50,059 nucleotides of DNA, from NCBI RefSeq assembly GCF_005233835.1, contig NZ_SZQA01000046.1, forward strand, positions 1 to 50,059. Direction: 5' to 3'. The translations under genes were made by a program, and so were the position numbers. Positions 2-45,195 of this stretch are shown here, one piece after another. Source of the stretch: Herbidospora galbida (lineage in GTDB: Bacteria; Actinomycetota; Actinomycetes; Streptosporangiales; Streptosporangiaceae). The notes under the pieces were generated by a model. The model was not told the origin of the DNA, did not search any database, and worked only from the letters and a program-made list of their open reading frames with translations. The stretch's first letter is position 1. Each line of letters begins with the position of its first letter.

Positions 2-622
2 GGCGGGCCGCTCGGGTCGGCGCTCCGGCACGCCCGCACCGCGCGGGAGGCCGGGGCCGACGGGGTGCTGCTGCTGCCGCCCGCCGCCCGCGGCCCGCGA
101 TACGCCGACTACGTGCGGGCGGTCGCGGCCGAAGGGGTGCCGGTCGTCCTCTACGCGCGCGACCACCTGGTGCTCTCGCCCCGCGAGGTGCTCGAACTCG
201 CCGACATCCCCGGCGTGGTCGGGCTGAAGGACGGGGTCGGCGACATCGACCGGATGCAGCGGATCGTCCGGGCCATGGACGGGCGCGACTTCACCTTCTT
301 CAACGGGCTGCCGACGGCCGAGCTGACCATGCCGGCCTACCGGGCGATCGGGGTCGACCTGTACTCCTCCGCCGTGTTCGCGTTCGCGCCGGAGATCGCG
401 GTGGCGTACCGGCAGGGGAACGAGCGGCTGCTCGGGGAGTTCTACGCGCCGCTCGTGGAGCTCAGGTCGAAGGTCCCCGGGTACGCCGTCTCGCTGGTCA
501 AGGCCGGGGTACGGCTGCGCGGGCTGGACGCCGGGGCGGTCCGGCCGCCGCTGGCCGACCTCGCGCCGGGCGACCTGGCCGAACTCGACCGCCTCATCAA
601 GATCGGGCTTGAGCTGACATGA
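2..622 (+). CDS. 5-dehydro-4-deoxyglucarate dehydratase (5' end outside window)
   Basis: DapA/KdgD-type (beta/alpha)8 lyase that would dehydrate and decarboxylate 5-dehydro-4-deoxyglucarate to 2,5-dioxopentanoate in oxidative uronate catabolism. The reading frame is open back to the left edge, so the N-terminal part is missing; about 206 residues are present. Visible landmarks are the YARD stretch near base 153 (family form YNRD) and the Schiff-base lysine in GLKDGVGD (AAG at 227-229). The stop overlaps the next start as ATGA (619-622), indicating translational coupling with the enolase-family gene. A semialdehyde dehydrogenase for the product is encoded at 8345-9748, which supports this substrate over dihydrodipicolinate. 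Other DapA-family aldolases (KDG aldolase, N-acetylneuraminate lyase) cannot be fully excluded from the partial sequence. Confidence 0.82.
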   Translation, partial: GGPLGSALRHARTAREAGADGVLLLPPAARGPRYADYVRAVAAEGVPVVLYARDHLVLSPREVLELADIPGVVGLKDGVGDIDRMQRIVRAMDGRDFTFFNGLPTAELTMPAYRAIGVDLYSSAVFAFAPEIAVAYRQGNERLLGEFYAPLVELRSKVPGYAVSLVKAGVRLRGLDAGAVRPPLADLAPGDLAELDRLIKIGLELT

Positions 623-1734
623 CGCGGATCGCGGGCCTGCACACGCTCCCGCTGCGGGCGGACCTGCCCCGGCCGTGGGGGCCCGACGTGCCGTACCACC
701 ACGTGATCGCCTGCACGCTCGTCCTCGACGACGGGCGGACCGGCACCGGATTCTCCTGGACCCCTTCCATCGGGGCGGCCGCGGTGGCCGCCCTGCTCGA
801 CCACGACGTCGCCGCGTTCGTGAAAGGGCTGCCGCCGCACCCGGAGGTGGTCTGGGACCACCTGTGGCGGCACCTGCGCGAAGCGGGCGGCGGCGGCGTC
901 ACGACCATGGCGATGGCGGCGGTGGACATCGCGCTGTGGGACCTCAGGGCCTCCGCCGGCGGCCTCGGCCTCGCCGACGCGATCGGGCGGCGGCGCGACA
1001 CCGTGCCGGTCTACGCGAGCGGGGTGAACCGGCACTACCCGCTCCACGAGCTGGTCGAGCAGGCCCGGCGCTGGATCGGCTACCCCGCCGTGAAGATCAA
1101 GGTGGGCCGCGACGACGACGTCGAGCGGGTGGCCGCCGTCCGGGAGGTCCTCGGGCCCGGCACCCTGCTGATGGTCGACGCCAACCAGCGCTGGGACCTG
1201 TTCCGGGCCCGCGCGATGATCCGGGAGCTGGAGCCCTTCGGGCTGACCTGGGTCGAGGAGCCGCTCCCGGCCGACGACCTCGACGGGCTGCGGCGGCTGC
1301 GCGCGTCGGTGGACGTCCCGATCGCCGCCGGCGAGAGCCTGTACACGATCCACGACTTCCGCCGCCTGCTCGACGCGGTCGACGTCGTCCAGCCCAACGT
1401 CGTCAGGGTCGGCGGGATCACCCCGCTGCTGCGGATCGCCGAACTCGCCCGGATCCAGGGCGTGCCCACCTTCCCCCACCTGCTGCCGGACCTGTCCGCG
1501 CAGCTCGCGCTGGCGCTCCCGCTGCCGTGCATGGTCGAGGACGTCGAGGACGCCTCCCTGGCCGCGCTCGGTCTCCTCGACGGGCCGCCGCCGGTCGAAC
1601 TGGGCCCCGGCGGGGCCCGGGTCGGCGCCCACTTAGGTCATGGCCTGCGTTTCGCGTCTTTGAGGCAGATTCCTCGCGCGAGCCACAGCCGGCCTCCGGC
1701 CGTCCGCGTCTCGCTTCCCCTGGAGGGCCGATGA
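619..1734 (+). CDS. enolase-superfamily sugar acid dehydratase / cycloisomerase
   Basis: Mandelate racemase/muconate lactonizing family protein of 371 residues. The K-x-K catalytic motif (K159/K161 in VKIKVG), metal ligands D187 (VDAN), E213/214 (VEEP) and E239 (AAGES), and H287 (FPHLLP) are all present, so the barrel is intact. In this context the likely reaction is aldarate dehydration (galactarate or glucarate) or galactarolactone ring opening, feeding the upstream dehydratase; the exact substrate is inference. It overlaps the preceding gene by ATGA and the following one by ATGA at 1731. The C-terminus is odd: after GHGLRFA the last 25 or so residues are encoded by a dispersed palindromic repeat (1662-1716), so the native C-terminus may have been replaced when the repeat arrived. 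Confidence 0.83.
   Translation: MTRIAGLHTLPLRADLPRPWGPDVPYHHVIACTLVLDDGRTGTGFSWTPSIGAAAVAALLDHDVAAFVKGLPPHPEVVWDHLWRHLREAGGGGVTTMAMAAVDIALWDLRASAGGLGLADAIGRRRDTVPVYASGVNRHYPLHELVEQARRWIGYPAVKIKVGRDDDVERVAAVREVLGPGTLLMVDANQRWDLFRARAMIRELEPFGLTWVEEPLPADDLDGLRRLRASVDVPIAAGESLYTIHDFRRLLDAVDVVQPNVVRVGGITPLLRIAELARIQGVPTFPHLLPDLSAQLALALPLPCMVEDVEDASLAALGLLDGPPPVELGPGGARVGAHLGHGLRFASLRQIPRASHSRPPAVRVSLPLEGR
1662..1716 (+). repeat. dispersed palindromic leader element, copy 1
   Basis: Copy 1 of a roughly 50-bp element found four times in the window. It reads GAGGCAGATTC, a short spacer, then GCGAGCCACAGCCGGCC-TCC-GGCCG and ends CCGCGTCTCGCTT. CGGCC/GGCCG forms the inner stem and GCGAG/CTCGC the outer one. 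It lies inside the end of the enolase-family gene. A GGAGGG ribosome binding site (1722-1727) and the ATG of the oxidoreductase (1731) follow directly. Confidence 0.72.
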
Positions 1735-3695
1735 TGAACGGCACCACCACGCGCACCGTCCCGGTGGTCCTGGCCGGGGCCTACGGCCACGGCTGGTGGC
1801 ACCTGGAGAACCTGCGGCGCCTCACCGACGGCGGGCTGGTCCGGCTGGCGGGCGTCTGCGACGTACGGGAGATCGAGCCCGGCCTGCTGCGCGGGCTCGG
1901 CAGCCCCGAGCAGTCGACCGACCTGGGGCGGCTGATCGAGCGGACCGGCGCCGAGGTGACCATCCTGGTCACGCCCATCCAGACCCACCGTGACCTGGCG
2001 ATCCGCGCGCTGGAGGCGGGGTCGCACCTGCTGCTGGAGAAGCCGCCCGCCTCGACCCTGGCCGGGTTCCACGAGATCGAGGCGGCCGTACAGAGAACCG
2101 GCCTGGCCTGTCAGGTGGGGTTCCAGAGCCTCGGCTCGGCGGCGATACCCGCGATCCGCCGCCTGGTCGCCGAGGGCGTCATCGGCCGGGTGCGTGGCAT
2201 CGGCGTCGCCGGCGCCTGGGAGCGCCCCTCGGCCTACTTCACCCGCTCGGCGTGGGCGGGCAGACGCCGCGCCGGGCGGGTCGACGTCATGGACGGCGCC
2301 CTCACCAACCCGTTCGCGCACGCCGTCGCGACCGCCCTGGCGGTGGCCGGGAAGGGCGCGGCCGACGACGTCGCCGACATCGACGCGGAGCTCTTCCACG
2401 CCAACCCGATCGAGGCCGACGACACCTCCTGCCTGCGCATCCGCCTGTCGGACGGGCCGCCGATCACGATCGCGGTGACCCTCACGGCCGACCGCAGGCA
2501 CGAGCCCTACGTGACCGTGCACGGCACCGAGGGGCGGATCACGCTGACGTACACCCTCGACCGGGTGCGGGTGGAGAGCCGGGCGCGCGGCGTGTCCACC
2601 ACCACCTACGCCCGCGCCGACCTGCTGGAGAACCTGGTCTCCCACGTCCGCGACGGCGGGCCGCTGCTGGTGCCGCTGCACCGGACGGGCGCGTTCATGC
2701 GGGTGCTGGAGGAGATCCGGCTCGCGCCCGACCCGCTGCCGATCCCCGACGCCCACCAGGAGATCGAGCACGAGAACGGCGTCGTGGTCCGCCGCACCAT
2801 CCCCGGCGTCGCCAACCTGACCGCGCGCAGCGCCGAGCACCTGGCGCTGTTCTCCGAGCTCGACGTGCCCTGGGCGGCCCCGCGCGCGGTGCTGAAGGTG
2901 GCCGGGCAGGCGGTCGCCGAGTACAACTGGCGGCCCGAACTGGCCACCACGCTCTCGCCCCGCCCCTACCTGCATCCGGTGCGGACGCTGCGGGGTGTCC
3001 CGGTGACCGAGGTCAACCCGGCCGACCACGTCCACCACCTGGGGGCCTCGATCGCGGTCGCCGACGTCTCCGGCCGCAACTTCTGGGGCGGCCGGACCTA
3101 CGTCCGGGGCCGCGGCCCGACCTGGCTGAACAACCACGGCGTGCAGAACCACGTCGCCTTCACCCGCCGCGACGAGCACGCCTTCACCGAGACCCTGCGC
3201 TGGACGGGCGTCGACGGCCTCGACCTCATCGAGGAGAACCGCCGGGTCACCGCCCGCCCGCTGAGCCGGGGCTGGGCCCTCGACGTGGAGTTCACGCTCA
3301 CCAACCTCACCCGCGAGCCGCTCACGATCGAGAGTTCGGCCACCAAGGGCCGCGCCGGCGCCGGTTACGGCGGCTTCTTCTGGCGGGCCCCCGGCGCGTC
3401 GGCCGACCGGGCGGCGTTCACCGCGTGGGGCGACGAGCCGCACGGCAGCCGCGCGCCCTGGCTGGCGATGTCGGCCGACGACTGGACGCTGGTCTTCGTC
3501 CAGGACGCCGACCCGTGGTTCGTGCGCATCGACGAGTATCCGGGCGCCGGACCGGCGCTGGCCTGGGAGACCCCGCTCGTCGTCGAGCGCGGGCTGACCC
3601 GCCGGATCGTCACCATCATCGCCGACGGCCGCCTCACCCCAGCCGAGGCCGCCGCTCTGGTCACAGACATCGGGGACATCCAACGAGAAAGGTAG
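1731..3695 (+). CDS. Gfo/Idh/MocA oxidoreductase fused to a PmoA-like (DUF6807) domain
   Basis: 654-residue two-domain protein. Residues 1 to about 330 form a Gfo/Idh/MocA NAD(P)-dependent oxidoreductase: a Rossmann start (VVLAGAYGHGWWHLENL, lacking a canonical GxGxxG), a CDVRE segment after the second strand and the EKPP motif near residue 105. Residues from about 385 form a DUF6807/PmoA-like beta domain with conserved HVHHLG, GRTYVRGRG and NHGVQNH segments; such domains usually occur as separate proteins beside sugar oxidoreductases. A carbohydrate or uronate redox role is inferred from the locus; the substrate is unknown. Two adjacent ATGs (1731, 1734) follow a GGAGGG site, and the first overlaps the previous stop. 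The solute-binding protein starts 5 bp downstream, so both are co-transcribed. Confidence 0.8.
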   Translation: MMNGTTTRTVPVVLAGAYGHGWWHLENLRRLTDGGLVRLAGVCDVREIEPGLLRGLGSPEQSTDLGRLIERTGAEVTILVTPIQTHRDLAIRALEAGSHLLLEKPPASTLAGFHEIEAAVQRTGLACQVGFQSLGSAAIPAIRRLVAEGVIGRVRGIGVAGAWERPSAYFTRSAWAGRRRAGRVDVMDGALTNPFAHAVATALAVAGKGAADDVADIDAELFHANPIEADDTSCLRIRLSDGPPITIAVTLTADRRHEPYVTVHGTEGRITLTYTLDRVRVESRARGVSTTTYARADLLENLVSHVRDGGPLLVPLHRTGAFMRVLEEIRLAPDPLPIPDAHQEIEHENGVVVRRTIPGVANLTARSAEHLALFSELDVPWAAPRAVLKVAGQAVAEYNWRPELATTLSPRPYLHPVRTLRGVPVTEVNPADHVHHLGASIAVADVSGRNFWGGRTYVRGRGPTWLNNHGVQNHVAFTRRDEHAFTETLRWTGVDGLDLIEENRRVTARPLSRGWALDVEFTLTNLTREPLTIESSATKGRAGAGYGGFFWRAPGASADRAAFTAWGDEPHGSRAPWLAMSADDWTLVFVQDADPWFVRIDEYPGAGPALAWETPLVVERGLTRRIVTIIADGRLTPAEAAALVTDIGDIQRER

Positions 3696-3700
3696 ACACG

Positions 3701-4990
3701 ATGGCCAGACGCCTGCTGTGTGCCCTGTTGATAGGCGCCGGTCTGACCATGACCGGATGCGGCGGCGACCCCGCCCCGTCCGGCGACGGCACGACCACCA
3801 TCACCTTCTGGGACGACAACGGCGGCCCCGCCCGCACGCCGGTGTGGCAGCACATCATCGCCGAGTTCCAGAAGGCCAACCCGAAGATCAAGGTCGAGTA
3901 CGTGGGCATCCCCATCGCCCAGGTCCAGCAGAAGTACGACACCGCCATCGCCGGCGGCGGCCTGCCCGACGTGGGCGGCGTCTCGACGGCGATGCTGGCC
4001 AACCTGGTGGCGCAGAAGGCGCTCGACCCGGTCGACCTGACCGGCCTGCCCCTGAACGAGCAGGTGGTGAACTCGGTCAAGTCGACGGTGCCCGACGGGA
4101 AGACGTACATGGTGCCGATGTCCACCAACATGGGCGTCTTCTGGTACCGCACCGACTGGTTCAAGGAGAAGGGCGTCACCCCGCCCGAGACGTGGGCCCA
4201 GTTCTTCGACGCGGTCGGCGCGCTCACCGACAAGGGCCAGAACCGCTACGGCTTCACCATCCGCGGCGGCGCGGGCTCGATCGCCCAGGCCTTGGAGGTC
4301 ATGTACGGCCAGTCGGGCATCCCCCAGATGTTCGACGCGAGCGGCGTCTCGACCGTGAACGACCCCCGCAACGTCGAGGCCCTGGAGAAGCTCGCGGGGC
4401 TCTTCAAGACCAACACGCCCGAGGCCGACGCGACCAACGACTACGCCAAGATGGTCGCCCAGTTCGACGGCGGCTCCATCGCGGTCATGCAGCACAACCT
4501 GGGGTCCTACAACGACCACGTGAAGACGCTCGGCGCCGACAAGGTCGCCGCGCTGCCCGTCTTCCGCCCGGCCGACGGCGCCCCCCGTGCGGTGCTGTCG
4601 AACCCGATCGCCGGGATCGGGCTGTTCGCGAGCGGCGAGAAGAAGGACGCCGCGCTGGCGTTCGCCACCTTCGCGGCCGGCAAGGCGATGAACAGCTACT
4701 GGGCCGACAAAACGGGCGTGCTGCCCGCCAACACCGAGGTGAACTCCGAACCGTGGATCAAGGAACGCCAGCACGTCTCGGCGGCTCTGGACGTGCTGAA
4801 CGACCCGGCCACGGCGGTCGTGCAGATGCCCTACCACCTGCCGGAGTTCAACGCGATCACCAAGACCGACGCCGAGCCGAACTTCCAGAAGGTCCTCCTC
4901 GGGGAGCTCTCGGCCAAGGAGTTCCTCAACGGCATGGCGACCGCGCTGACCGAGGCCCAGGCCAAGTGGAAGCAGCGCAACGGCGGCTGA
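3701..4990 (+). CDS. sugar ABC transporter substrate-binding lipoprotein
   Basis: Family 1 extracellular solute-binding protein of 429 residues. The N-terminus is a lipoprotein signal with basic MARR, a hydrophobic segment and a lipobox-like MTGC with the acylated cysteine near residue 20. Mature features include TITFWDDNGG, the SBP_bac_1 core and repeated aromatic residues. It would bind extracellular oligosaccharides, probably oligogalacturonides or another pectin fragment given the pectate lyase next door; the ligand is inference. No permease or ATPase gene is present in the window, so partners must lie upstream of the left edge or elsewhere. AAAGG precedes the ATG at suitable spacing. A strong hairpin (5000-5042) ends the transcript. 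Confidence 0.9.
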   Translation: MARRLLCALLIGAGLTMTGCGGDPAPSGDGTTTITFWDDNGGPARTPVWQHIIAEFQKANPKIKVEYVGIPIAQVQQKYDTAIAGGGLPDVGGVSTAMLANLVAQKALDPVDLTGLPLNEQVVNSVKSTVPDGKTYMVPMSTNMGVFWYRTDWFKEKGVTPPETWAQFFDAVGALTDKGQNRYGFTIRGGAGSIAQALEVMYGQSGIPQMFDASGVSTVNDPRNVEALEKLAGLFKTNTPEADATNDYAKMVAQFDGGSIAVMQHNLGSYNDHVKTLGADKVAALPVFRPADGAPRAVLSNPIAGIGLFASGEKKDAALAFATFAAGKAMNSYWADKTGVLPANTEVNSEPWIKERQHVSAALDVLNDPATAVVQMPYHLPEFNAITKTDAEPNFQKVLLGELSAKEFLNGMATALTEAQAKWKQRNGG

Positions 4991-4999
4991 CCCCGTTCT

Positions 5000-5042
5000 C
5001 CCGTACGTCTCCCGCCTCCTGACCTGGCGGGAGCCGTACGGG
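5000..5042 (+). terminator. hairpin terminator after the solute-binding protein gene
   Basis: CCCGTACG-t-CTCCCGCC pairs with GGCGGGAG-c-CGTACGGG around a 9-nt loop. The stem is 16 bp with one mismatch and no T-tract, as is common in actinobacteria. Confidence 0.78.
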
Positions 5043-5055
5043 CCCCTGTCTTCAC

Positions 5056-5106
5056 GGCAGCTTCCCCCACGCGGGCCACAGCCGGCCTTCGGCCGTCCGC
5101 TTTCTC
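5056..5106 (+). repeat. dispersed palindromic leader element, copy 2
   Basis: Second copy: GGCAGCTTC, then GCGGGCCACAGCCGGCC-TTC-GGCCGTCCGC, ending TTTCTC. Like copy 1 it is followed within a few bases by a ribosome binding site (AGGAG, 5107-5111) and the pectate lyase ATG at 5120. It lies downstream of the 5000-5042 terminator, so it belongs to the lyase leader. The outer stem is weaker than in copies 1 and 3. Confidence 0.7.
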
Positions 5107-5119
5107 AGGAGACCTCTCT

Positions 5120-6367
5120 ATGCGCAGCATGCTCGTTTTCGCCCTGACGGTCGGCGCGCTGGCCGGCCCCGGCACCGATCCGGGCCGGCAGACGCTGGGA
5201 CCCGGGGACGGCTGGGGCTCCCACAGCTCCGGCACCACCGGCGGTTCGGCGGCGCCCGCCGCGAACGTCCACACCGTCTCGACCCGCGACCAGCTCGTGA
5301 ACGCCCTCGCGGCGCCCGGCCCGAAGATCATCAAGGTCAGGGGCGTCATCGACGGCAACCTGCCCTGTTCCTCCTACGCGACCGGCGGCTACTCGCTGGC
5401 CGCCTACCTCCAGGCCTACGACCCCGCGACGTGGGGCCGCGTCGACCCGTCCGGGCCGTTGGAGGACGCCCGCGCGGCCTCGGCCGCCCGGCAGACCGCC
5501 CACATCAAGCTCAAGGTCGGCTCGAACACCACGATCGTCGGCGAGGGGAAGCACGCCCGCATCAAGGGAGTCAACCTGCACGTCGACAAGGCCGACAACG
5601 TGATCATCCGCAACCTCACGTTCGAGGACGCCCACGACTGCTTCCCCCAGTGGGACCCGCTCGACGGCGCCGAGGGCAACTGGAACTCCCTCTACGACAA
5701 CATCTCGCTGACCGGCTCGACCCACGTGTGGGTCGACCACAACACCTTCACCGACGGCGCCAACCCCGACAGCGCGCAGCCGGTCTACTTCGGCCGCCCC
5801 TGGCAGGTGCACGACGGCCAGCTCGACATCACCAACGGCAGCGACCTCGTGACCGCGTCGTGGAACCGCTTCACCGGCCACGACAAGACGATGCTGATCG
5901 GCTCGACCAACAACCCGTCACAGGACCTCGGGAAACTCCGGGTCACCGTCCACCACAACCACTTCGAGAACACCCTGCAGCGGCTGCCCCGGGTCAGGTT
6001 CGGCCAGGTGCACGTCTACAACAACTACTACGAGGTGTACGACCCGGCGTCCTTCGTCTACGCCCTCGGCGTCGGCGTGCAGTCGCAGATCTACAGCGAG
6101 AACAACTTCTACCGCCTGGGCCGCGGCGTCGACCCGGCGAAGATCCTCTACAACTGGGGCGGCACCGCGCTGACGGCCAGGGGCGACCTGCTGCGGGTCG
6201 GCGGCACGGTCACCCCGTTCGACCCGATCACCGCGTACAACGCGGCCAACGACCCGGACCTGGGCGCCGACGCGGGCTGGACCCCCACCCTGCACACGGG
6301 CGTCGACCCGGCGGCGGAGGTGCACAAGGACGTGTCGAGACACGCGGGCGCCGGCGAGATCACCTGA
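5120..6367 (+). CDS. secreted pectate lyase, polysaccharide lyase family 1
   Basis: 415-residue PL1 parallel beta-helix enzyme that cleaves polygalacturonate by beta-elimination. Recognisable signatures are VWVDHNTF near residue 200 and LQRLPRVRFGQVHVYNNYYEV near residue 290, which carries the R-x-P-x-x-R catalytic region, plus several NN/DN beta-helix turns. The N-terminus (MRSMLVFALTVGALAG) is a short hydrophobic signal peptide, so export is expected. AGGAG lies 8 nt before the ATG. The gene is the entry enzyme for the catabolic genes around it. Its leader holds a copy of the palindromic repeat also found before the oxidoreductase gene, hinting at shared post-transcriptional control or shared repeat insertion. 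A bidirectional terminator follows at 6434-6474. Confidence 0.92.
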   Translation: MRSMLVFALTVGALAGPGTDPGRQTLGPGDGWGSHSSGTTGGSAAPAANVHTVSTRDQLVNALAAPGPKIIKVRGVIDGNLPCSSYATGGYSLAAYLQAYDPATWGRVDPSGPLEDARAASAARQTAHIKLKVGSNTTIVGEGKHARIKGVNLHVDKADNVIIRNLTFEDAHDCFPQWDPLDGAEGNWNSLYDNISLTGSTHVWVDHNTFTDGANPDSAQPVYFGRPWQVHDGQLDITNGSDLVTASWNRFTGHDKTMLIGSTNNPSQDLGKLRVTVHHNHFENTLQRLPRVRFGQVHVYNNYYEVYDPASFVYALGVGVQSQIYSENNFYRLGRGVDPAKILYNWGGTALTARGDLLRVGGTVTPFDPITAYNAANDPDLGADAGWTPTLHTGVDPAAEVHKDVSRHAGAGEIT

Positions 6368-32450: not shown

Positions 32451-33890
32451 ATGAACGACGATAGCAGTATCGCTCGTCTCGCCGACAGTCTGAAAGCTCA
32501 GGCCGCCTCTCTGCGGCCCGGCGACCGGCTTCCCTCCAGCCGGGAGATCGTCCAGGCCCACGGCGTCTCGCCCGTCACCGTCTCCAAGGCCGTGGCGCGG
32601 CTGGTCGCCGAGGGGGTCGTCACCACGCGGCCGGGCGCGGGCGCGTTCGTCGCCGCGCCGCCGCGTCCGCGGGAGACCGATCCCTCCTGGCAGACCGTCG
32701 CGCTGGGCGGCCGGGTCGTCGACGAGGCGGCGCTGACGTCGATCCTCCAGCAGCCCGCCGAGGGGGTGATCCCGCTCACCGGCGGCTATCTCAACCCGGT
32801 GCTGCGGCCGACCAAGGAGCTCGGCGCCGCCGCGATCAGGGCGGTGAAGCGGCCCGACGCCTGGTCGATGCCGCCGCGCGCGGGCGTGCCCGAGCTGCGC
32901 ACCTGGTTCGCCGGTGAGACGGAGACGACGCAGAACGACGTGCTGATCGTCAGCGGCGGGCAGGCCGCGCTGACCCACGCCTTCCGCGGGCTGGCCGCGC
33001 CCGGCGATCCGGTGCTGGTGGAGACGCCGACCTATCCGGGGGCGCTGGCGACCGCGCGGGCGGCCGGGCTGCGGGTCGTGCCGGTGCCGGCCGACGACGG
33101 CGGGGTGCGGCCCGACCAGCTCGCCGAGGCGTTCGCGCGGACCGGGGCCAGGGTCTTCTACTGCCAGCCGACGCTGCAGAACCCGTCGGGGGCGACGCAG
33201 TCACTGGAGCGGCGGCGGCAGGTGCTCGACATCGCGCGGGCGGCCGGCGCGTTCGTCGTCGAGGACGACTTCGCCCGCTATCTCACCACCACTCCCCCGC
33301 CGCCTCCTCTGGTGGCGCTCGACACGCACGGCACGGTCGTGCACGTGCTGTCGCTCAGCAAGATCACCGCGCCGAGTCTCCGGGTGGCGGGGCTCGTGGC
33401 CAGGGGGCCGGCCGCCGCGCGGCTGCGGGCCGCGCAGATCGTCGAGTCGTTCTTCGTCGCGCGGCCGCTCCAGGAGACGGCGCTGGAGTTCGTGTCGGCC
33501 CCCGCCTGGCGACGGCACCGGGCGGCCGTCGCGGCGGAGCTCGACGAGCGGCGGGGGATCCTGCTGGAGAGCCTGCGGCGGCATCTGCCCGACCTGCGGG
33601 TGGAACTGGTGCCGAAGGGAGGGCTGCATGTGTGGGTACGGCTCCCGCCCGCCCTCGACGAACCGGCGCTCGTCGAACGCGCCCAGCGGGCGGGGGTGCT
33701 GGTCAGCCCGGGGCGGATCTACCACGCCACCGAGCCGCCGGGCCCGTGGCTGCGGCTCACCCACACGGCCGCGTCCCATCGGGCCGAACTGGCAGAGGGG
33801 GTCATTCGCCTCGCGACGGCTTACGGGGAACTCGCGGCTGACGCTCCCGGCGCTTCTTCTGCTGGAAGGCCAGGTAGGCGAGGTAGCTGA
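32451..33890 (+). CDS. MocR/PdxR-type GntR regulator with aminotransferase fold
   Basis: 479-residue regulator. A GntR winged helix fills residues 1-75 (SLRPGDRLPSSREIVQAHGVSPVTVSKAVARL) and a fold-type I PLP aminotransferase domain runs from about 110 to 460. PLP-site features are GGQAALTHAFRGL, YCQPTLQNPSG (substrate Asn), VVEDDFARY (pyridine-N Asp) and the Schiff-base lysine in LSLSKITAPSLRVAG. The effector is probably PLP or an amino compound. The ATG at 32451 lacks a Shine-Dalgarno and follows a TACTCT -10, so it is probably leaderless. It is divergent from the EamA permease, its likely target. The last 15 residues or so are Arg/Ser-rich and overlap a small antisense gene. Confidence 0.87.
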   Translation: MNDDSSIARLADSLKAQAASLRPGDRLPSSREIVQAHGVSPVTVSKAVARLVAEGVVTTRPGAGAFVAAPPRPRETDPSWQTVALGGRVVDEAALTSILQQPAEGVIPLTGGYLNPVLRPTKELGAAAIRAVKRPDAWSMPPRAGVPELRTWFAGETETTQNDVLIVSGGQAALTHAFRGLAAPGDPVLVETPTYPGALATARAAGLRVVPVPADDGGVRPDQLAEAFARTGARVFYCQPTLQNPSGATQSLERRRQVLDIARAAGAFVVEDDFARYLTTTPPPPPLVALDTHGTVVHVLSLSKITAPSLRVAGLVARGPAAARLRAAQIVESFFVARPLQETALEFVSAPAWRRHRAAVAAELDERRGILLESLRRHLPDLRVELVPKGGLHVWVRLPPALDEPALVERAQRAGVLVSPGRIYHATEPPGPWLRLTHTAASHRAELAEGVIRLATAYGELAADAPGASSAGRPGRRGS

Positions 33891-33897
33891 CGTGCAT
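33802..33897 (-). CDS. predicted 31-residue basic small protein
   Basis: A small frame beginning MHVSYLAYLAFQQKKRRERQ, with an aromatic/aliphatic start followed by a strongly basic tail (about 11 Lys/Arg). It has an excellent ribosome binding site: AAGGAG six bases before the ATG at 33897. Immediately upstream (33910-33962) is copy 3 of the palindromic leader element in the same relation to the start as copies 1 and 2. It lies antisense to the end of the MocR gene. I do not recognise the family; the support is the start region and context, not homology. It could be a leader peptide or a membrane/RNA-binding micropeptide. Confidence 0.45.
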   Translation of the reverse strand: MHVSYLAYLAFQQKKRRERQPRVPRKPSRGE

Positions 33898-33909
33898 GGT
33901 GTTCTCCTT

Positions 33910-33962
33910 AAGCGAGAAGCGGACGGCCGAAGGCCGACCGTGGCTCGCGCTTGAACCTGCCC
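33910..33962 (-). repeat. dispersed palindromic leader element, copy 3
   Basis: The best-folding copy. On the minus strand GCGAG pairs with CTCGC, CGG with CCG, CGGCC with GGCCG, with a T-T mismatch, a small internal loop and a TTC apical loop. GGCAGGTTC lies 5' and CGCTT 3'. AAGGAG and the ATG of the small gene follow. Confidence 0.72.
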
Positions 33963-34049
33963 GATAGACAGGAAATCACGACACCAGCTAAAGCGTTACA
34001 GGGGTGTCTTGTTATTCCCGGCTAGAGTGCCCCGGAAGGAGTGATCCAC

Positions 34050-43587: not shown

Positions 43588-43772
43588 GGGGGACCTCCTT
43601 TTTCGGGTCGGTCACCCCACGTCGCCGGCTCCCGGAGGTGCGGCGCCGGTCTTCGATCGAAGCGCCCGGTCGCGTCGACCGGGGGCCACTACCGAGGACC
43701 GGCCCTCTTTTTCCGCGGAATGACGCGGGGCACTGGTTTCACGGGTGGTGTGGATATTCAGTTGTCGTTACG

Positions 43773-43808
43773 CGGAAGGGAGCGGCGTGATGTCGCCGCT
43801 CCCTTCCG
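43773..43808 (-). terminator. hairpin between rpsO and pnp
   Basis: A perfect 14-bp stem CGGAAGGGAGCGGC with GCCGCTCCCTTCCG and an 8-nt loop lies just beyond the rpsO stop. It may end the rpsO message or act as a processing hairpin before pnp. Confidence 0.82.
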
Positions 43809-43814
43809 GACGCG

Positions 43815-44084
43815 CTATCGGCGCAGACCCAGCCGCTCGATCAGCGTGCGGTAGCGGGTGATGTCCTTCGCCTGCAGGTACTTCAGCAGGCGACGACGGC
43901 GGCCGACCAGCAGGAGCAGGCCGCGGCGGCTGTGGTGGTCGTGCTTGTGGGTCTTGAGGTGCTCGGTCAGGTCGCTGATGCGCTTGCTCAGCAGCGCGAT
44001 CTGCACCTCGGGGGACCCGGTGTCGCCCTCGCTGGCGCCGTATTCGGCGACGATGGCCTTGGTCGTGGCGGTGTCGAGCGACAC
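43815..44084 (-). CDS. rpsO: 30S ribosomal protein S15
   Basis: 89-residue S15, which binds 16S rRNA early in 30S assembly. The sequence has [35 protein letters not shown] and [14 protein letters not shown]. The start is the GTG at 44084 with AAAGGAG 5-6 nt upstream; the next codons give SLDTATT. Its 190-bp leader holds a hairpin (44105-44147) and copy 4 of the palindromic element (44228-44276). It lies between ribF and pnp, as in most actinobacteria. Confidence 0.96.
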
Positions 44085-44147: not shown

Positions 44148-44227
44148 TACAGTCGCCGTGACGAGAAGCCGGTGATTACTCAGCCGACATACAAGGCTAC
44201 CACCGCCCGTTAACCAGCCGAGACGCC

Positions 44228-44276
44228 AAGCGAGACGCGGACGGCCGGCCGTGGCCCGCACACGTGAATCCGCCTC
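44228..44276 (-). repeat. dispersed palindromic leader element, copy 4 (shortened)
   Basis: On the minus strand: GAGGCGGATTC, then GCGGGCCACGGCCGGCC joined directly to GTCCGCGTCTCGCTT. It lacks the 7 bases around the apical loop present in the other copies. It starts at the ribF stop codon and lies 145 bp upstream of rpsO. Confidence 0.65.
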
Positions 44277-45195
44277 AAAGAAGACGTCGGGCCTCGTCGA
44301 CGTCGGCGCGCATCTGTTCGATGAGAGCCTCGACCGAGTCGAATTTCAGGGTGTCGCGGAGCCGGGCCAGGAAGTCGACCGAGACGTGGAGGCCGTAGAG
44401 GTCGAGATCGTCGCGGTCGAGGGCGTAGGCCTCGACGGTCCGGACGACGCCCTCGAAGGTCGGGTTGGTGCCGATGGAGATCGCGGCGGGCCAGCGCTCG
44501 TCGGGCGACTCCAGCCAGCCGGCGTAGACGCCGTCGGCCGGGATGGCCGTGTGGGGCGCCGACTCGACGTTGGCGGTCGGGAACCCGAGCGCCTTGCCGC
44601 GCTGGTGGCCCCGGACCACCACGCCCTCGACCCGGTGCAGACGGCCCAGCTCGTCGGCGGCGGCGGCCACGTCGCCGTCGGTCAGATGCTGGCGGATCAG
44701 CGAGGAGGTGATGTCTTCGAGACTGCTCACGAGGGGGACGCCGACGGCGACGAAGTCGTACTTCTCGCCGAGTTCGCGCAGGGTGCCGAGGTTGCCGGCG
44801 GCCTTGTGGCCGAACCGGAAGTTCTCCCCCACCACGACCCCGGCGGCGTGCAGCCGGTCGACCAGGGCGATCTGGACGAACTCCTCGGGCGAGGTGCGCG
44901 AGAACTCCAGCGTGAACGGCAGGATCAGCACCGCGTCGACCCCGAGGGCGCCGAGCAGCTCGATGCGCCGGTGCGGGGTGGAGAGCTGGGAGGGATGGCT
45001 GCCGGGCCGCACCACCTCGTCGGGGTGGGGGTCGAAGGTCACCGCGACCGACGCGACCCCGAGCTCATGGGCGAGGTCGACGGCCCGGCGCACCAGCGTC
45101 TGGTGACCCCGGTGGACGCCGTCGAACACCCCGATCGTGACGACGGACCGGCCCCAGTCCGCGGGCACGTCGTCAAGTCCGAGCCAGCCACGCAC
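44275..45195 (-). CDS. ribF: bifunctional riboflavin kinase / FAD synthetase
   Basis: 306-residue RibF making FMN and FAD. The N-terminal adenylyltransferase shows [16 protein letters not shown] (H-x-G-H type) and [11 protein letters not shown]. The C-terminal kinase shows [20 protein letters not shown] and [11 protein letters not shown]. The start is the GTG at 45195 with a G-rich site upstream; an in-frame ATG 51 bp upstream (45246) lacks support. The palindromic repeat copy 4 begins at its stop codon. Confidence 0.95.

Follow-up and report, generated by a model that had tools for sequence, protein, structure and literature searches.

The window analysed here, the whole stretch of 50,059 nucleotides of Herbidospora galbida DNA (contig NZ_SZQA01000046.1), contains four copies of a short palindromic repeat. 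Copy 1 (1657..1716, minus strand for a unit read AAGCGAG...GAATCTGCC) lies in frame within the 3' end of a plus-strand gene of 371 amino acids (aa) (619..1734), and its head faces the Shine-Dalgarno sequence of a 654-aa gene starting at 1731. Copy 2 (5051..5108, minus) has a decayed head and is bordered by a stop codon at 4990 on one side and a start codon at 5120 on the other. Copy 3 (33910..33968, plus) is found upstream of a reading frame of 31 residues, and copy 4 (44228..44281, plus) between ribF and an 89-aa gene (43815-44084) which, from its position, we take to be rpsO. An earlier reading of the window, made from the sequence alone, had already noted the four copies, and inspection of the sequence confirmed them; a 20-base block at their 3' side is matched three times in the window (<=3 mismatches), which exceeds chance (0.11 expected in shuffles). 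The copies belong to a repeat family whose units have moved since the Herbidospora species split and which prefers the interval between a stop codon on its head side and a Shine-Dalgarno sequence on its tail side.

The repeat family and its hairpin

A covariance model built from 32 copies, the four of the window among them, recovers all four (1659-1718, 5051-5111, 33908-33966 and 44226-44279; E 4e-9 to 1.5e-17) and yields at least 146 matches at E<=0.001 in the 8.3-Mb genome of H. galbida. The listing behind this count comprised 149 rows from 150 candidates scored, the true count perhaps being slightly higher; two of the 149 rows are reverse-strand duplicates, i.e. the palindrome read twice, and 147 were used, two at E 0.35 and 0.55 being omitted. 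A pattern scan of the same genome gave 89 matches at <=3 mismatches and none with a reversed control. The working set of 138 copies at 122 sites was drawn from a second listing of 160 rows, from which reverse-strand duplicates (20, then one more) and a weak separate match (L097:2519) were removed; copy counts differ between the listings since some array members are absent from the second. Such arrays, 13 in the H. galbida genome, are arranged head-to-tail with 2-4 units at a spacing of 57-62 bp.

Among the 41 genomes searched, the repeat is present in all seven of the genus with 36-132 matches each, H. galbida having the most. Outside the genus, 33 of 34 genomes are without a match and the remaining one has a single weak match. 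In addition, all 51 exact-core loci in a collection of named species belong to Herbidospora, and the repeat was not found in the phages, plasmids and viral contigs searched.

The element was first described as about 50 bp long; the unit in fact measures about 60 nt and extends beyond GGCAG into a variable tail. Read on the strand opposite to that of the sequence-only reading, it has the form AAGCGAGACGCGGACGGCCGAAGGCCGGCCGTGGCTCGCG-n4-GAATCTGCC-tail. Inside the unit a 37-nt hairpin is composed of three 5-bp blocks, with mostly A.G mismatches at pairs 6 and 12 and a GNA-type triloop. The conserved arm GAATCTGCC is followed by a purine-rich tail, often ...GACA, and the two ends are unlike (head AAGCGAG, tail GAATCTGCC...GACA). 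Little conservation is seen in the flanks outside the unit (profile of the 122 sites). As to the motifs which the window copies were said to share, the decayed copy 2 lacks CCGCGTCTCGCTT and has CCGCTTTCTCAGG, and copy 3 has CCGCTTCTCGCTT.

The stem covaries in the larger of two alignments (A2, consisting of 150 of the 160 model-match rows, reverse-strand duplicates included), where 14 of 17 stem pairs are changed on both sides and 72 such cells compare with 46.5 after shuffling; none of 500 shuffles was as high, and slid controls were lower. In the smaller alignment (A1) covariation is weak, with 2 pairs, and one slid control reached 3. Folding of single copies is unremarkable as RNA (z -1.26) and moderate as DNA (z -2.28), the AAGCG strand being the better fold in 100 of 115 distinct cores. 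The strand asymmetry of wobble pairs, considered as proof of RNA-level selection, was rejected as such because 62 of 83 wobbles are confined to pairs 10 and 11. Between orthologous copies 10 double stem changes were counted against 2.0 expected (697 pair comparisons, 26 sites). Compensatory changes were accepted at four sites (L076, L087, L129 and L160); excluded were L148:6283, where two position-4 changes come from the decayed copy 2, and L056, where the change is not pairing. Post-insertion selection, gene conversion or self-correction of the palindrome could all be sources of these changes.

Filled and empty sites and their gene context

Orthologous stretches were located in six sister species (G001-G006) and compared with those of H. 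galbida, the identity being 90.7-96.6% over 71 aligned chunks. All 24 sites scored in at least five species are polymorphic and none is filled everywhere; two of these rows were re-read by eye (L222:10151, empty in H. galbida, G002, G003 and G004, and L129:13285, empty in G002), the others being scored partly by length. The site of copy 1 is empty in five of six relatives, with a stem-deleted remnant in G005, and that of copy 3 in all six. At the site of copy 2, G005 and G006 carry a unit and G001, G002 and G004 do not (five of the six relatives scored, G003 left out); at that of copy 4 a unit is present in G002 and G003, the site being empty in G001, G004, G005 and G006. Full units lengthen a site by about 53-61 bp, internally deleted ones by less. 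Many junctions between empty and filled sites are clean and lack a target duplication; judged by eye, no consistent duplication was found in the filled/empty pairs, L085:8765 being readable as a 3-base repeat. On the species tree 10 of the 24 presence/absence patterns are explained by one change. Four remnants keep the 3' part only (G005 at L060:5002 and at window copy 1, G006 at L070:5003, G003 at L070:6506).

Two further sites differ in kind. At an array site (L222:10151 and L224:7283) the number of units varies in the manner of a variable number tandem repeat: G001 and G005 have several, G006 has a single one and the other four species have none. At L040:5002, where H. galbida has two units, the palindrome of G002 and G004 is of another kind, being more perfect and lacking the GAATCTGCC arm.

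The position of the repeat was assessed with a home-made gene caller based on codon usage (1056 genes over 1.1 Mb, coding fraction 0.886; start choices approximate), the element being excised in silico and compared with 400 random placements. In these excised coordinates 103 of the 122 sites are intergenic and 19 lie within called genes; excision strips the last base from some stop codons, by which stop overlap is undercounted and some of the 19 'inside' calls are wrong. The head is found within 4 nt of a same-direction stop codon 20 times, where 2.2 were expected, and at 20 of the 103 intergenic sites (8.8 expected) a start codon lies no more than 25 nt from the tail, neither value being reached in any of the 400 random sets. 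Placement between same-direction genes in the sense of the element is also more frequent (36 of 103 vs 27.0 expected, P 0.028), whereas divergent sites are as expected (33 vs 33.4) and convergent ones are few (8 vs 13.8). Counted with the element in place, 30 of the 122 heads touch or overlap a stop codon (TGA in 18 cases), and 19 of the 30 precede a same-direction gene. Furthermore, 32 of 122 sites (18.7 expected, p 0.002) have a 4-mer resembling a Shine-Dalgarno sequence after the tail; its reverse complement is depleted there (8), and no excess exists on the head side (16 and 12). Empty sites already carry the Shine-Dalgarno sequence, e.g. CTGA^AAGGAG. There are also empty sites without TGA, such as CTCCTT^CAGGAA.

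The claim that copies are oriented with the downstream gene is true of copies 1-3 but not of the family, whose enriched orientation is the opposite one, the mirror placement represented by copies 1-3 showing no enrichment (11 vs 8.5 expected). Copy 1 is not purely intergenic, as it is read through in frame by the 371-aa gene. Copy 4 is 7 bases shorter around the loop, as had been noted, and the ribF stop at which it was said to begin sits in bases missing from empty sites, TTTGA being part of the element's tail.

Insertion has visible consequences for the neighbours. Copy 1 lengthens the end of gene 619..1734 in frame by 60 nt (93 nt in H. galbida, 33 nt in relatives), giving this gene about 20 extra codons and leaving intact the overlap of its stop with the next start (ATGATGA). 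At the operon site L129:5001 the next start codon follows the stop after 11 nt in the empty species and after 70 nt in H. galbida. Such widened gaps and the approximately 20 in-frame extra residues would be by-products of insertion, and single copies may affect the translation of their neighbours. At L085:4996-6264 an element is located within the 3' end of a called gene of 422 aa, judged by eye to resemble RibBA, and apparently extends its C-terminus.

The 31-residue frame downstream of copy 3, which the sequence-only reading had pointed out, is present at 33802-33897 (minus) and reads MHVSYLAYLAFQQKKRRERQPRVPRKPSRGE. On the opposite strand it overlaps the end of a called gene of 479 aa (32451-33890), and its start and Shine-Dalgarno region are recognisable in relatives in which the copy 3 site is empty. 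At gathering score the repeat matches no Rfam model, and a two-copy array gave three matches, all sub-threshold. The sole Rfam match in the window lies elsewhere and is an Actino-pnp cis-regulatory RNA (RF01688, 66.6 bits) at 43645-43703 (minus), alongside a perfect 15-nt inverted repeat at 43773-43808.

Explanations for the dispersal of the repeat

Taken together, these data argue, with a probability of about 0.88, for a family of mobile elements that are non-autonomous and very small, with a unit of about 60 nt, rather than for a built-in translation switch. The best-supported reading is that the repeat is mobile and depends on an enzyme acting in trans; that this proceeds by way of a single-stranded hairpin we infer. 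This enzyme would recognise the hairpin in single-stranded form and would join its ends at purine-rich sites, and the position beside ribosome binding sites would result from target choice together with survival where insertion harms least. Several points weigh against it. No mobilising enzyme was found in a search that covered Y1_Tnp and the genes framed by copies. Junctions are not always clean, some differing by a few bases, and the majority of copies lie outside the preferred context, given the 30 of 122 heads at a stop codon. The wobble asymmetry at pairs 10 and 11 may reflect few events. Finally, 14 of the 24 presence/absence patterns require two or three changes on the species tree, so that loss, recombination or repeated insertion must occur too.

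Of the other explanations, a family of repetitive extragenic palindromic (REP) elements moved by a REP-associated tyrosine transposase (RAYT/Y1, HUH type) that has since been lost from most genomes is rather unlikely. It would account for the single hairpin, the lack of target duplication and the single-strand asymmetry, and a Y1/IS200-type transposase does occur, the sole one among the seven species, in H. cretacea (L228, G003:C8:352081-352434; Y1_Tnp, E 3.1e-37). However, only this one of the seven genus genomes has a Y1_Tnp match and the genome richest in copies, that of H. galbida, has none. Moreover, neither a GTAG nor a CGTC tag stands beside the stem in the profile, and the arrays are head-to-tail, a form described as under-represented in REPs (PMC3733652). 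A transposase framed by copies within 4 kb was looked for by eye, without a family search, in 11 intervals, and none of their genes was transposase-like.

A more far-reaching possibility is a new class of bacterial micro-element in which neither a DDE nor a RAYT transposase moves the 60-nt hairpin. Its machinery would choose the gap between stop codon and Shine-Dalgarno sequence, perhaps because translation boundaries expose the single-stranded DNA or RNA on which it acts; this we regard as doubtful.

The sequence-only reading had left the choice between a structured mRNA leader and a REP- or MITE-like repeat (MITE, miniature inverted-repeat transposable element) with a strong insertion preference. 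The latter is upheld by the genus-wide dispersal, the polymorphic and often clean empty sites, the arrays and the preference for stop and Shine-Dalgarno positions. What had been named as speaking against the proposal, namely random placement, no covariation and a linked REP transposase, is encountered only in part: placement is non-random, covariation is present and no linked REP transposase was found. A hairpin in the host mRNA, as leader or between cistrons, which is selected at its positions for translation, stability or processing, would fit sites adjoining Shine-Dalgarno sequences and stop codons, the covarying stem, the compensatory changes in orthologous copies at the four accepted sites and the better fold of the AAGCG strand. 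Against it, the 24 sites are without exception polymorphic between sister species, with orthologues lacking the element, and the Shine-Dalgarno sequence exists before insertion. The genes beside the copies are unrelated, divergent (31) and convergent (15) sites are frequent in the H. galbida genome, and copies 1-3 of the window are in the non-enriched orientation. If host mRNAs used the hairpin, better pairing would be expected in sense copies. Among the 107 of 122 sites with an intact 37-nt core, pairing was found equal, with 0.874 in sense (44 copies), 0.875 in antisense (25), 0.855 in divergent (26) and 0.892 in convergent copies (12), and wobbles outnumber A.C mismatches in both sense (13 to 2) and antisense copies (17 to 2). 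A covarying stem that pairs equally in either gene direction favours a hairpin of the element itself over a host mRNA leader, which is improbable as the reason for the placement. Together with the better fold of the AAGCG strand, the equal pairing suggests that the element retains its hairpin to further its own propagation and uses it single-stranded and strand-specifically, a conclusion made less firm by the concentration of wobbles at two stem pairs and by the several possible sources of the compensatory changes.

Still less probable is an RNA-mediated element copied by reverse transcriptase in the manner of a short interspersed nuclear element (SINE). Strand-biased folding, the purine-rich variable tail, the lack of target duplication and the four 3' remnants would agree with it, yet copies with the 3' half only, sought as a sign of 5' truncation, are rare: all 67 pristine 3' halves in the H. 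galbida genome coincide with model matches (one weak, E 0.0096), and none was found beyond them. Least probable of all is a MITE of a DDE transposase, which would be equally small, non-coding, multi-copy and close to genes, since no consistent target duplication exists in the empty/filled pairs, the two ends differ and no gene in the 11 framed intervals looked transposase-like by eye, no DDE family search having been made.

Relation to known repeats

RUP and BOX of pneumococcus as well as ERIC are small non-autonomous intergenic repeats. In the Herbidospora unit, unlike such MITEs, no terminal inverted repeats were found that would connect it with a transposase resident in the genome, and its empty sites show no consistent target duplication. 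REP elements are also short palindromic repeats, and some of the CGTC group are without a dedicated transposase (PMC3733652). The repeat differs from them in the length of the unit (60 nt vs 20-40), in its head-to-tail arrays instead of head-to-head and tail-to-tail (HH/TT) dimers and in its location at gaps between stop codon and Shine-Dalgarno sequence. Furthermore, the profile shows AA before the stem and Gnnnn-GAATCTGCC after it in place of the GTAG or CGTC tag, and the RAYT/Y1 transposase is restricted to one of the seven genomes, not that of H. galbida. In the open-access full-text collection searched, no paper on this repeat was among the matches listed.

Short interspersed repeats lacking a known transposase, such as CGTC-REPs and the mycobacterial interspersed repetitive units (MIRU), are a long-standing puzzle. 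Herbidospora offers a compact test system for it: gene order is similar in its seven sequenced species, comparison of filled with empty sites comes close to fixing both ends of the unit, and the preference for stop and Shine-Dalgarno positions can be measured. Its repeat also illustrates how a hairpin that moves can increase the distance from stop to start codon within operons and extend proteins in frame at the C-terminus. It behaves most like MIRU, to which it is likened by description and not by sequence. Insertion of MIRU at overlapping stop/start (DTGA) sites was reportedly described by Supply in 1997. MIRU are actinobacterial repeats of 40-100 bp at about 41 loci, mostly intergenic, thought to lie in polycistronic transcripts and variable in tandem copy number (PMC2734929, PMC3635867, PMC4213456). 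The Herbidospora unit shares with them the actinobacterial host, the shortness, the mostly intergenic location, the position between operon genes and the variable tandem number, but it has a strong covarying hairpin and is, in the searches made, limited to Herbidospora.

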